Below, piece after piece: positions 16,278 to 41,423 of a stretch of 43,154 nucleotides of DNA. Location of the stretch: the NCBI GenBank assembly GCA_030041985.1, contig JASIAM010000283.1, positions 1 to 43,154 of the forward strand, in the 5' to 3' direction. The notes under the pieces were generated by a model, which was given only the letters and a program-made list of their open reading frames with translations, was not told where the DNA came from and made no database searches. This stretch comes from Bryobacteraceae bacterium. GTDB lineage: Bacteria > Acidobacteriota > Terriglobia > Bryobacterales > Bryobacteraceae. Made by a program: the position numbers and the translations under genes. Position 1 is the stretch's first letter. Every line of letters starts with the position of its first letter.

Positions 16278-16772
16278 ATGACCTATCTGATCACCTTTGC
16301 TTGCTATGGGCAGCACCTGCACGGCGGCGAGTCGGGTTCCGTCGACCGCCAGCACAACGTCCCGCGAACCTCAATCCTGGGAGTGAATTCCGCCCGGGTT
16401 GCGGCCGAGAGGGAGCTGATGGATCAGCCTCCTTACGAGTTGGACCAGATTCGTCGCGACGCCGTGTTGGACGCGATTCAGAAGGTGTGTGCGCATCGCG
16501 GCTGGAGTTTGCTGGCAGCACACGTGCGCAGCAATCACATACATACTGTAGTGGAAGCGGAAATACCTCCGGAGCGGGTTATGAACGATTTCAAAGTCTA
16601 TGCCAGCCGCAGCCTGAATCGGATGGGGCTAGATCAGCCAGCCCGGAAGCGCTGGTCCCGCCATGGCAGCACACGATGGTTGTGGAAGCCACAGCATGTG
16701 TCCGCCGCCATTCAGTATGTGGTGCGCGAACAGGGCGATGCCATGTCGGTGTTCGAATCGGGAGAGCACTGA
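16278..16772 (+). CDS. REP-associated tyrosine transposase (RAYT, Y1_Tnp/IS200-like)
   Basis: The 164-aa protein starts with the family opening MTYLITFACYGQHLHGG. It carries the metal-binding HUH motif SNHIH (His87, His89) and the catalytic tyrosine candidate Tyr108 in the helix VMNDFKVYASRSLNR. A Trp/Arg-rich C-terminus (KRWSRHGSTRWLWKP) is typical for RAYTs and is used to bind REP hairpins. The gene is bracketed by a perfect 28-bp inverted REP repeat, and a third copy lies 190 bp upstream. RAYTs are single-copy domesticated relatives of IS200/IS605 transposases that process REP sequences. The frame is intact and the key residues are present, so it may be active. Confidence 0.88.
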   Translation: MTYLITFACYGQHLHGGESGSVDRQHNVPRTSILGVNSARVAAERELMDQPPYELDQIRRDAVLDAIQKVCAHRGWSLLAAHVRSNHIHTVVEAEIPPERVMNDFKVYASRSLNRMGLDQPARKRWSRHGSTRWLWKPQHVSAAIQYVVREQGDAMSVFESGEH

Positions 16773-17287: not shown

Positions 17288-20200
17288 ATGTCAGAGGATT
17301 CCGATACTCCCAGGGAGCAAGCCGATTCCGGGGAAGAGCCAACGCCACAGCAAATCGGAGCTGCGCCTTTTAGCTCCTCCGCCGCGGAGCCACCAACGCC
17401 AACCGGCGCTGAACCGGTAGTGGTTGCCGACGAGTCCGAAGAGACGGACGGAACGAGCCCCCTTCCTTACCTGGTAGTGGGTATCGGCGCTTCCGCCGGC
17501 GGAGTGGAGGCCTATATCGAACTGTTCCGCAGCCTCGCTCCCAATACAGGCATGGCTTTTGTAGTGATTCCGCATTTGTTGGCCACACAGAAGAGCCACC
17601 TGGTCGATATCCTGCAGCGGGCCACTTCGATGCCGGTGCAAGAAATAATCGATGGGACCCATCCTGAGCCGGATCACGTCTACATCATTCCCCCCAACAC
17701 ACGCGTGCGCATCGAAAAGGGGTCCCTGCGGCTGGATATGCGCGCCGTGGACCGTGTTCCCCGCCCCATCGATTACTTCTTCCGTTCCTTAGGGGCCGAT
17801 CAGAAAACCCACGCCATTGGGGTGGTGCTTTCGGGAACCGATGCCGATGGCGCGCTCGGCCTGAAAGCGATCAAAGGCGAAGGCGGAATCGCCATTGTAC
17901 AGAGTCCCGAATCGGCGCGCTTTTCGGAAATGCCTTTAAGCAGCATTTCCATCGATCATGTGGACCGCATCCTGCCGCCCGGCCAGATCGCCAGCGAACT
18001 GGCGCAACTGGCCGAACGCATCCACGAACCGGTTTTGCGTACCCTCGAAGCGGGCGCTGCTCCATCCTCTGACGAGCAGCAGTTTTTCCGCATCCTCAAT
18101 CTGATGCGCGGCGTTTCCGGCATTGATTTCCGCCTCTACAAGCCCACCACCATTCGCCGGCGCATCGCCCGCCGCATGCTGCTGCATCCCGTCCACACCA
18201 TGGCCGACTACGCCAACATGCTGCAGGTGAGCCCTAAGGAGTTGCGGGAATTGCTGGAAGACGCTCTCATCGATGTCACCCGCTTTTTCCGCGACCCGCC
18301 GGTTTTCGAAGCTCTGAAACGGGTCATTTTCCCGCGCATTTTCGAGGAGCGCGAACCGGATCAACAGGTGCGGATCTGGGTGGCGGGCTGTTCCTCGGGC
18401 GAAGAGGCGTATTCCATCGCCATGGTGTTGCTGGAGTATCTGTCGGGCAGGCCTTTCGAGCCGCCCATCCAGATTTTCGGCACCGACGCCAGCGAAAACA
18501 ATATACAGAAGGCCCGCACCGGCATCTATCCCGAATCCATCGTCAGCGAGGTCTCCCCGGAGCGTTTGCGGCGTTTCTTCGTGAAGATCGATAAGGGTTA
18601 CCAGGTGGCCAAGCGAGTGCGCGATATGTGCATCTTCGCGCGCCAGAACCTGTGCCACGATCCGCCCTTCTCCAAGATGGACCTGATCAGTTGCCGCAAC
18701 GTTCTCATCTACATGGGAACGGAGTTGCAGAAGCAAGTGCTGCCCACCTTCCATTATTCCCTGCGGCCAAACGGATTTCTCCTGCTCGGCACTTCGGAAA
18801 CCATCCGCGAATTTACCGACCTTTTTCAACTGATTGACCGCAAGAACAAGTTCTTCGGCAAAATCGGCAACGGCTCGTCCCGTGCGATGATGACGATCGC
18901 TCCCCGGCTTTTCTTGCCGGATTCGGCGCAGCAAACTCTGCCCGTGCCGTTGGTGGAGAACTGGGGGGAATTGGAGCTGCAGCGAGCTTCTGACCGCATT
19001 GTGCTGGCGCGCTATGGTCCGCCGGGCGTGATCGTCGATGAGAGGCTGGAGATTTTGCAATCGCGCGGCCACACGGCGCCGTTTCTGGAAATGGCACAAG
19101 GGGCCGTGAGCCTGCAATTGACGCGCATGCTGCGGGAGAGCATCGCAGCGCCGGTGACCCAGGGTGTCCGCCGGGCCGTCGAGCAAGACATACCCGTGCG
19201 TATCGAGAGTTTACGTGTCCGCGACGAGGAACAGGAATACAACATTTCTGTCGAAGTGCTGCCGATCCATACCATGGCTCCGCGCTCCCGCTGTTTTCTG
19301 GTCCTGTTTTCGCCGTCGCCGATAGGGGACGTCACGCCTCTCCCGCCAAGCGAACCTGCCGAGTCGGAATCGGGATCCTCCGATTCGGACCTCATCATCC
19401 GGCTGCGGCAGGACCTGGCATCCACCAAGCTTTATCTGCAGACACTGATCGAAGAGCGGGACGCCAAGAACCAGGAGCTCCTCTCGGCCAACGAGGAAAT
19501 TCAGTCGGCCAATGAGGAGATGCAAAGCACCAACGAGGAGCTGGAAACCACCAAGGAGGAACTACAGAGTTCCAACGAAGAACTGCAGACGGTGAATGAC
19601 GAACTGCAGCAGCGCAACTCCAGCCTGACGCAGACGACCAACGATCTTTCCAACCTTTTGAACAGCGTGAATCTGCCGGTGCTCATGCTCAGCAACGAGC
19701 TGACGATTCGCCATTTCACGCCGCCCACCCAGCGCCTGATGAACCTGCGCGCTCCCGATATTGGCCGCCCATTCAGCGATATCCGCTTGAACCTGAACAT
19801 CGACAATCTGGAACCGCTGTTGCTCCAGGTGCTGGAAACGCTGGCCCCCCGCGAGATGGAGGTGCAGGACAAGGAAGGCCACTGGTACCTGCTGCAGGTG
19901 CGCCCCTACCGCACCACCGATAACAAGATCGATGGTGTCGTGGTGGTGCTGCTGGATGTGGACCAGCTTCGCCGCATTCAGCAGGAGCTGCGCGGCGCGC
20001 GCGACTTCGGGCGATCAGTGATTGAAAATGTTCCCTTGCCATTGGCGGTGGTGGACCCGGATTTGCGAATCCACGCCGCTAACGATGCCTTTCGCACGCT
20101 TGCCGGTTTGGGCAAGGAAGACCTGGAGCGCCGCTTCCTTCCGGATCTCGCATCCGCCGCCTGGGGCTTGGAAGAACCGCTACAGTCCGGCCTGGAGGAA

Positions 20201-22179: not shown

Positions 22180-22183
22180 GAAA

Positions 22184-22217
22184 AGCTGTCAGCTATCAGC
22201 TTTCAGCTTTCAGCTTT
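22184..22217. repeat. AGCTGAT-type heptad array, left copy
   Basis: This is a run of near-identical 7-nt units, read on the plus strand as AGCTGTC, AGCTATC, AGCTTTC, AGCTTTC and AGCTTT. Positions 22191-22208 (AGCTATCAGCTTTCAGCT) are the exact reverse complement of 22614-22631 on the other side of the four-helix-bundle gene. The array overlaps the 3' end of that gene and supplies its last codons and stop. Confidence 0.85.
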
Positions 22218-22588
22218 GCGATCGACAGGCGGGTTTCGGCTTTCAGCTTTTGGAACAAGCCAGTGAGCATGCGTTTTAATTCGGTCGCACGGTCGGATAG
22301 GTCTTCGTAATCCTTCTGCTTCATGAACTTAAGGTCCCTGGCCAACAGCAAGTGATACTCCAACTCGTTTGCTGATCCCATGGCAATTGAACAAAACCGC
22401 GCGAACTCGGCGTCACCATTCCTCCCGCAGCCCTCCGCCAGGTTGGCCGAAATCGAGGCACTCGATCGCCGCAGTTGACTTGTGAGCCCATACAACTCTT
22501 CACGCGGGAAAGTAGCTGTAGCCTGATACACCGCTAAGGTCAAATGATGTGCCTTCTGCCAGACTTGCAACTGATGGAAGTCTTTCAC
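22196..22588 (-). CDS. Four-helix-bundle protein (23S rRNA intervening-sequence / Avd-like family)
   Basis: The 130-aa, GTG-started protein has the family signature: FHQLQVWQKAHHLTLAVYQA, FPREELYGLTSQLRRSSASI, ANLAEGCGR and LEYHLLLARDL. It should fold as four helices and form a pentamer, as known for family members including the Avd protein of diversity-generating retroelements. The role of stand-alone copies is not established; nucleic acid binding is likely. Its C-terminal tail (KLKAETRLSIAKLKAES) is translated from the flanking heptad repeat. Matching inverted arrays stand on both sides. No reverse transcriptase or variable-repeat target is nearby, so it is not part of a typical DGR here. 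Confidence 0.9.
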   Translation of the reverse strand: MKDFHQLQVWQKAHHLTLAVYQATATFPREELYGLTSQLRRSSASISANLAEGCGRNGDAEFARFCSIAMGSANELEYHLLLARDLKFMKQKDYEDLSDRATELKRMLTGLFQKLKAETRLSIAKLKAES

Positions 22589-22606
22589 CGTGCCATCCTG
22601 GATTTA

Positions 22607-22645
22607 AGCTGATAGCTGAAAGCTGATAGCTAGTAGCTGATAGCT
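22607..22645. repeat. AGCTGAT-type heptad array, right copy
   Basis: Plus-strand units AGCTGAT, AGCTGAA, AGCTGAT, AGCTAGT, AGCTGAT and AGCT run in tandem with a 7-nt period. Positions 22614-22631 are the exact inverse of 22191-22208. The array separates the four-helix-bundle start codon from the stop of the upstream sigma factor gene. Confidence 0.85.
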
Positions 22646-22649
22646 TCTT

Positions 22650-41344: not shown

Positions 41345-41423
41345 GGCCTTCCCAGTCCCCCGCCCCTAGTCCCTAGTCCCTGTTTTTGTGCTAGCTTAAG
41401 TACTTCACAAAGTTGGAGATCGC

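Follow-up and report, generated by a model that had tools for sequence, protein, structure and literature searches.

A small S23 gene unit with heptad ends, a probable transposase-less mobile element

Why should a single small gene, lying between two unrelated genes, be bracketed by inverted arrays of a 7-nt repeat, one of which also encodes the C terminus of its protein? The locus is in a 43,154-nt stretch of Bryobacteraceae DNA (the window, a contig of a 6.0-Mb assembly that we call G000). A sequence-only reading had described it as a gene for a four-helix-bundle protein of the Avd/23S intervening-sequence family between opposed AGCTGAT/AGCTGAA arrays, and had interpreted it as a minimal single-gene mobile or recombining unit. 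The observation is correct. The interpretation is supported by the analyses below, which show that such units are present or absent as blocks and that gene-less copies are scattered through the same genomes, which may explain both an orphan protein family and the unexplained heptanucleotide repeats of many bacteria.

The arrays were recovered by a tandem-repeat search (Table 1). Within them, AGCTATCAGCTTTCAGCT at 22191-22208 is the exact reverse complement of 22614-22631 (18 bp), and an inverted-repeat search extends this match to 33-nt arms that are 88% complementary. Allowing up to 2 mismatches, the window contains 10 heptad doublets, against a mean of 1.37 and a maximum of 6 in shuffled sequence, and 9 of the 10 lie in this unit. 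The last residues of the protein, KLKAES, and its TGA stop codon are heptad sequence. One refinement is needed, because in the gene-less relatives of this genome only a 5-nt core (TCAGC/GCTGA) is constant and the two spacer letters vary, so that the arms are arrays of a core rather than exact inverted copies.

Table 1 Features of the window (positions from its first nucleotide)
Position	Strand	Feature
16278-16772	+	RAYT-like Y1_Tnp transposase ORF (PF01797, E 8e-8), the only Y1_Tnp match in this genome; no GCTGA doublets near it
19469-19560		Period-21 DNA repeat inside the 1298-aa ORF, encoding a coiled-coil-like stretch (NEEIQSANEEMQSTNEEL)
to 22179	+	Response regulator gene (end of its stop codon)
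22180-22649		Whole unit: everything between the stop codons of the response regulator and sigma factor genes
22184-22217	-	Heptad array at the 3' side of the S23 gene (GCTGANN units; period 7, 4.9 copies); encodes the last codons and stop
22196-22588	-	S23/23S_rRNA_IVP four-helix-bundle protein, 130 aa, GTG start
22236-22248	-	Degenerate extra heptad pair inside the 3' end of the ORF (1 mismatch)
22607-22645	+	Heptad array at the 5' side of the S23 gene, inverted relative to the other (period 7, 5.6 copies)
from 22650	-	Sigma-70-family gene (end of its stop codon)
41351-41381		Lone array of the other heptad type of this genome (CCCTAGT/GGGACTA), the type that brackets the second S23 gene (ftsW-murG); not part of the unit at 22 kb

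The protein belongs to the S23 family in profile searches against PF05635 (E 9e-41, 138.8 bits against a cut-off of 33.8) and TIGR02436 'four helix bundle protein' (E 2.5e-40, 137.1 bits against a cut-off of 24). An AF2 model of residues 6-110 (mean pLDDT 96.1) has 2gsc as its best Foldseek hit (TM 0.93, rmsd 0.8), matching the four-helix bundle of that structure. The modelled domain has a conserved face that includes positions 33, 36, 40, 44 and 47. The oligomeric state is assigned only by homology and was not measured here: 2gsc and 2rld each contain five chains, and the Xanthomonas S23p is stated to be a homopentamer (PMC4990558). The sequence-only family assignment is right for the intervening-sequence side, whereas the Avd profiles stay below their cut-offs (bAvd 26.9 against 40; NF033474 23.9 against 80). 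S23 is the only protein assigned to the unit and has no transposase match. A PADLOC search gave no hit, and phage records gave no match to the window protein at E 1e-5.

The unit is not a local oddity. G000 has a second S23 gene (locus L179, 3069-3434 of contig C269), which lies between ftsW and murG of the cell-wall cluster with all genes in one direction, and is bracketed by a different inverted heptad, GGGACTG. By eye, the same position is occupied in genomes G003 and G005 (L034, L047), with diverged heptads on both sides. S23 genes of the same taxonomic family and of 80 records from many phyla (the best 80 of 576 confirmed) show, by eye, the same layout with yet other heptads. For counts we used 103 of 111 loci, leaving out L065 (a duplicate of L033) and L035, L054-L057, L061 and L062, which are divergent, partial or bAvd-like; by eye, L035 does have AAAAGGC arrays, whereas L057, L061 and L062 do not show array pairs. 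Three-copy period-7 arrays occur upstream in 60 of 103 and downstream in 65 of 96 loci, against 76 of 1636 control windows of the same loci. Periods 4-6 stay at 3-9% (control 3-6%) and periods 10-13 are near zero, whereas periods 8 (8 and 4) and 9 (3 and 2) are rarer than period 7 but above their controls of 0.4% and 0.2%; one S23 gene (L048) is bracketed by inverted arrays of period 9.

The arrays are inverted relative to each other. In the 97 of 103 loci with enough flank, the upstream flank matches the reverse complement of its own downstream flank with a score of 12 or more in 66, compared with 2.6% of swapped pairs and 11 of 97 in direct orientation. The other 31 loci have a weak own-flank match (score <12), and some loci have one array only. 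Where a period-7 segment was scored (49 upstream and 53 downstream of 97), its median length is 4.9 and 4.6 units, with a range of 3 to 25. The presence of arrays at homologues had been named in advance as a test of the mobile-unit reading, and came out in its favour.

The heptad differs between loci but follows the protein. We compared the upstream array of one locus with the downstream array of another, so that positional homology could not help, and found that similarity rises with S23 identity (Mantel 0 of 999 permutations; Spearman 0.16 overall). Between different phyla, arrays are shared in 10 of 10 pairs at 70% identity or more, 45 of 117 at 60-70%, 23 of 540 at 50-60%, 39 of 2375 at 40-50% and 7 of 758 below 40%, so that the signal sits above about 60% identity. 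Phylum labels were assigned by hand from record titles and mis-binning of MAGs is possible for L118 and L069, which make up 8 of the 15 pairs inspected at 0.70 or above. Four pairs of different S23 genes from one genome share no array (scores 7-9), although only the G000 and Adhaeribacter pairs are clean, because L063 (genome G016) and L042 and L064 (G037) lack a clear array pair of their own. In Sphaerospermopsis NIES-73 the five S23 loci inspected, of eight matches, each have their own heptad by eye.

Heptads also occur without a gene. In G000 the heptad doublet (up to 1 mismatch) has 229 places, against 2 for the reversed control. We examined 47 stretches, drawn from 100 of these places (every contig with a perfect match among them plus 14 of the one-mismatch contigs). 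In these, 34 of 37 array pairs within 600 bp have one polarity (TCAGC left, GCTGA right); 33 have loops of 7-154 bp and the window unit has a loop of 393. Two pairs of opposite polarity (339 and 420 bp) lie between neighbouring elements, one pair is parallel and 19 arrays are unpaired. Counting the truncated outermost unit, the left arm has exactly five units in 24 of 33 hairpins and the right arm in 15 of 33, fewer than half, with both in 12. In a second genome of the family, G049, 5 of 8 left and 7 of 8 right arms have 4 full AGTCAG units; of 20 sites taken from each of G049 and G041, strict pairing rules returned 8 and 3 hairpins, so most of those sites gave no pair. The loops of G000 do not derive from S23 genes (1/33 and 2/33 above threshold), although one S23 relic with an internal deletion (L248, read by eye) and one 3'-truncated relic (L338) exist.

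It had been stated beforehand that arrays found equally often far from such genes would count against the reading, and within G000 this condition is literally fulfilled. However, the distant arrays are mostly paired as hairpins of one polarity and are associated with the cognate S23, and we therefore read them as relatives of the unit rather than as a refutation. Three-unit matches to the GCTGA core within the genus number 196 in G000 and 35 in G001, both of which have a GCTGA-type S23, and 0, 0 and 1 in G002, G003 and G004, which have no cognate S23. In 61 genomes of the family, the 10 with a clade-A S23 (60% identity or more to the window protein, fragments included) have 1-196 matches, whereas of the 51 others 12 are non-zero and 5 have 10 or more (Mann-Whitney p 2e-7); put differently, of the 12 genomes with 10 or more matches 7 have a clade-A S23, against 3 of the 49 others. 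Clade-B S23 (14 genomes) is associated with GTCAG arrays (p 5e-5), with 4 of the 14 at zero. In cross tests clade A against GTCAG gives p 0.09 and clade B against GCTGA gives p 0.006; five genomes have both clades. These tests used 39 S23 sequences, not every weak or partial match, and do not model genome relatedness. The highest GCTGA counts are in G000 and G041 and the highest GTCAG counts in G049 and G024, each with an S23 bracketed by that heptad. There are exceptions: five genomes with 6-65 GCTGA matches have no S23 over the cut-off (G042, G051, G053, G062 and G064, three of them under 90% complete), three of the ten clade-A genomes have fragments only (G025, G027 and G054), and the clade-A S23 of G007, which has 66 GCTGA matches, is itself bracketed by another heptad (L230).

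Clade-B S23 genes at L042, L043, L052, L053, L063 and L236 are in a larger conserved unit with a palindrome close to CATATCCCGCAGGGATATC downstream, a different composite element that has a gene-less relative in L020 of G000. Two S23 loci of genome G037 (L064 and L232) share a long downstream hairpin (GAGCAGCATAGCCGC ... GCGGCTATGCTGCTC), and L046 of G047 shares the upstream stretch of L232. In Calothrix PCC 7103 (L209, L213, L218, L222, L226 and L229), five near-identical S23 copies and two that are slightly diverged by score, one of which was not retrieved, lie inside a larger repeated unit that looks like an insertion sequence carrying S23 as a passenger.

The sequence-only reading had also proposed to look for empty sites and for variation in repeat number, and both were found. 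Three elements in a ribosomal-protein operon of G000 (L14, L16, S3, L22, L2, L4) are missing from sister genomes: two sites are empty in 3 of 3 sisters covering them, and at the first site G002, G003 and G004 lack the arrays and G001 has a short remnant-like stretch. In Bosea, 3 of 31 genomes carry S23 between nuoC and nuoD. Two others (G072 and G090), with flanks 93-98% identical, have 16 unaligned bp there, five more loci have 24-27 bp, G101 has no gap, and 20 have 306-748 bp of other sequence, which is a GFA-family gene in the one checked. The Bosea element diverges about as much as its flanks, so loss in G072 and G090 is as possible as recent gain; element identities obtained for L262 and L263 in this comparison are gapped chance alignments and were not used. 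For the window copy itself no clean empty site was obtained, because the neighbours of the sigma gene differ in G001-G003.

The clearest insertions are on Nostocales plasmids. At site A, Trichormus variabilis (two strains, identical over 3318 bp) and Scytonema NIES-4073 carry the unit, whereas the five plasmids retrieved at 97.5-97.9% identity have 13 bp. The filled site reads AAAAAGTAAT, then the unit AAATCAG...CTTCTTT, then GTAAT and TAACAAAT, and the empty site reads AAAAAGTAATTAACAAAT, giving a 428-bp insertion with a candidate 5-bp duplication, GTAAT. Site C gives the candidate TTCTA and sites B and D give none clearly; one of the two candidates overlaps heptad-like letters and no duplication could be fixed at the window site, and these observations do not settle whether insertion duplicates its target. 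At site D the unit replaces the 3' end of the upstream gene. The units at sites A, C and D are homologous (A-C 78% over 419 bp, A-D 82% over 416 bp), with the similarity ending with the unit, whereas the flanking genes give no such match, only short hits of heptad arms, indicating that homologous units occupy three unrelated sites. Scytonema has two heptads fewer than Trichormus in its 5' arm, and Nostoc C052 and N. edaphicum have six and five TGTTCCC units in the 3' arm at site B. Nostoc C052 has a truncated copy at site A, and a Brasilonema plasmid has a short gene-less hairpin of the same heptad after the same upstream gene.

S23 is sense to both neighbours in 40 loci, antisense to both in 1 and mixed in 8 of the 49 loci where both could be judged by a longest-ORF rule. 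Same-strand neighbourhoods are common anyway (39 of 46 control pairs), and S23 agrees with each neighbour about as often as control segments agree (85%), so only the 40:1 excess is informative. This fits a gene living on host transcripts, as in the rRNA intervening sequences, whose ORF is also sense (PMC4990558).

We consider, with moderate confidence, that the unit is one copy of a very small (about 420-460 bp) mobile element related to the 23S rRNA intervening sequences (IVS), consisting of a 5' heptad array, an S23 gene and an inverted 3' heptad array. In this view relatives are inserted between protein genes, at one site partly inside one, usually sense to both neighbours; here S23 follows the sigma gene in the same direction and faces the response regulator. 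S23 is, by homology, a homopentameric four-helix-bundle ring, and we propose that each subunit reads the 5-nt core of one heptad, so that a five-unit arm would be one ring's worth of sites, and that each S23 lineage reads its own heptad. A five-unit arm for a five-subunit ring is the simplest reading of the counts, by analogy to RNA-wrapping rings such as TRAP. The bound hairpin (DNA or RNA) would then be copied or joined into new sites by host enzymes, and S23 would act in trans, so that gene-less hairpins of two roughly five-unit arms multiply in genomes with the cognate S23.

Our data establish the unit and its occurrence across phyla, the inverted and lineage-linked heptads, block presence and absence, homologous units at unrelated sites, gene-less hairpins of one polarity and their statistical association with the cognate S23. 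Mobility by some route is very likely. By contrast, heptad binding by S23, the five-to-five match, dependence on host transcription and mobilization in trans are inferences: S23 has no catalytic domain, binding to nucleic acid was not assayed, and neither the DNA-joining enzyme nor the nature of the intermediate (RNA or DNA) was identified. The role of S23 as the reader of five heptads is the best supported of these inferences.

If correct, this links two orphans, the function of stand-alone S23/IVP proteins, which have solved structures but no known function, and the origin of bacterial heptamer repeats, for which the papers we read give no established mechanism. It suggests a code by which the heptad could be predicted from an S23 protein; the predicted position of XCC0516 inside GGGAATC arrays was not examined in a Xanthomonas genome. 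A 420-bp element that carries only a non-catalytic protein would be among the smallest gene-bearing mobile units. It also suggests that S23 genes reported in cas loci (PMC3936711, PMC10910872) may be insertions into cas operons: in a Pseudanabaena galeata plasmid an S23 unit with long AAAAGCT arrays (L330, 1501-1860) lies between cas6 and cas4, strain ABRG5-3 has the two genes without it, and a four helix bundle gene is also listed between cas6 and cas4 of an Anabaena sp. 90 plasmid. A wider reading is possible, although we consider it somewhat less likely than not: that the heptanucleotide repeats common among long SSRs of bacteria are the ends and gene-less offspring of one class of transposase-less mobile elements, whose S23 ring reads five tandem 5-nt cores, one per subunit, and in which protein and cognate heptad have co-diversified and moved together across phyla, the rRNA IVS being the special case that landed in 23S genes.

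Of the alternatives, all of which we consider unlikely, the one that survives best is that the arrays are binding sites of a host regulator, or of S23 acting as a global regulator, spread by ordinary mutation and selection. The sites seen lie, by eye, mostly at or between gene ends, and comparable heptanucleotide elements of Geobacter metallireducens were called putative regulator sites (PMC2700814). However, whole units of 60-450 bp are present or absent as blocks between related flanks, homologous units occupy unrelated sites, and one insertion replaces the 3' end of a gene. Slightly less likely still is that the arms are only RNA stems for RNase III processing, as in 23S IVS, with selection on base pairing and an incidental heptad form. 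The window unit does fold as RNA (z = -4.0), the Coxiella IVS has a 28-bp stem and RNase III excision (PMC4990558), and S23 is usually sense to its neighbours. However, the variable dinucleotides of the two arms of gene-less elements match hardly more than those of random arms (0.20 against 0.16; 16 elements with equal arms), so that pairing at those positions does not seem to be kept, and a stem alone does not explain the 7-nt period, the unit number near five or the cognate heptads elsewhere in the genome.

A REP/RAYT-like system, in which a Y1 (TnpA-REP) transposase moves the hairpins and S23 is a passenger, is less likely again and is not supported by the Y1_Tnp loci examined. It would be consistent with the hairpin shape and dispersal, which resemble REPINs, and with the Y1_Tnp ORF in the window. 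However, a profile search found 9 Y1_Tnp hits in 4 of 5 genus genomes; the eight outside the window have no GCTGA doublets in the 1.9-3.3 kb examined for each, in the window the doublets lie only at the S23 unit, and G003 and G004 each have a Y1_Tnp match with 0 and 1 GCTGA arrays. Shared ends were sought for no other transposase. Replication slippage alone, proposed in a survey cited in PMC4679880 that found heptanucleotides the commonest class of long SSR in most genomes, would be consistent with the varying repeat number but is the least likely, as it gives neither inverted pairs of the same unit on both sides of S23 nor protein-linked heptads across phyla.

Among known systems, the accessory protein Avd of DGRs has the same fold (4dwl and 8ub7 at TM about 0.83, E 0.05), but its profiles match below cut-off here and the three bAvd-like hits inspected by eye (L057, L061 and L062) lack heptad arrays at both sides; the two genes adjacent to the unit are the response regulator and sigma factor genes, and no search for a reverse transcriptase or TR/VR was run. 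REPIN/RAYT elements and MITEs are likewise short dispersed hairpins thought to be mobilized in trans, with empty sites, but here there is no transposase in the unit, no shared spacer was seen and the ends are tandem 5-nt cores.

Heptameric SSRs share the 7-nt tandem units: GGGAATC in Xanthomonas and GGGGA(C/T)T in Nostoc PCC 7120 (PMC4692102), TAACTGA in Beggiatoaceae (PMC4679880), GGGACCG and MTYCTGA in Geobacter metallireducens (PMC2700814), and the STRR of heterocystous cyanobacteria, which have been used for fingerprinting. In Xanthomonas the majority have four units, with 70 and 75 inverted pairs that are mostly intergenic and long arrays that are not at the same genes in two species, and in Geobacter there are four units, or five in 15 of 16 class-3 sites, written as hairpins. 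By contrast, Nostoc has few inverted pairs and longer arrays, and TAACTGA arrays have 2-6 units with one indirect repeat in the main genome. In what we read, none of these three papers links the repeats to S23 (neither 'S23' nor 'helix bundle' occurs in them), and S23 is described without heptad arrays, apart from the Coxiella heptamers, in PMC3936711, PMC10053308, PMC10910872, PMC11270868, PMC8700078 and PMC5524665. Our literature searches, in which many listed papers were not opened and preprints and most subscription journals were not covered, found no paper joining the two in general.

The closest system is the 23S rRNA IVS with an S23p ORF, as in Coxiella and Leptospira (PMC4990558). It has S23p as its only gene, a length of about 430 bp, terminal inverted repeats, an ORF sense to the host transcript and, as reported for Coxiella, tandem heptamers upstream of S23p in strain-variable number. 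The window unit likewise has its S23 ORF between terminal inverted repeats that can form a stem; no RNA data on excision by RNase III were examined. It differs in lying between protein genes rather than inside a 23S rRNA gene, in having arrays on both sides, in its lineage-linked heptads and in the gene-less copies elsewhere in the genome.
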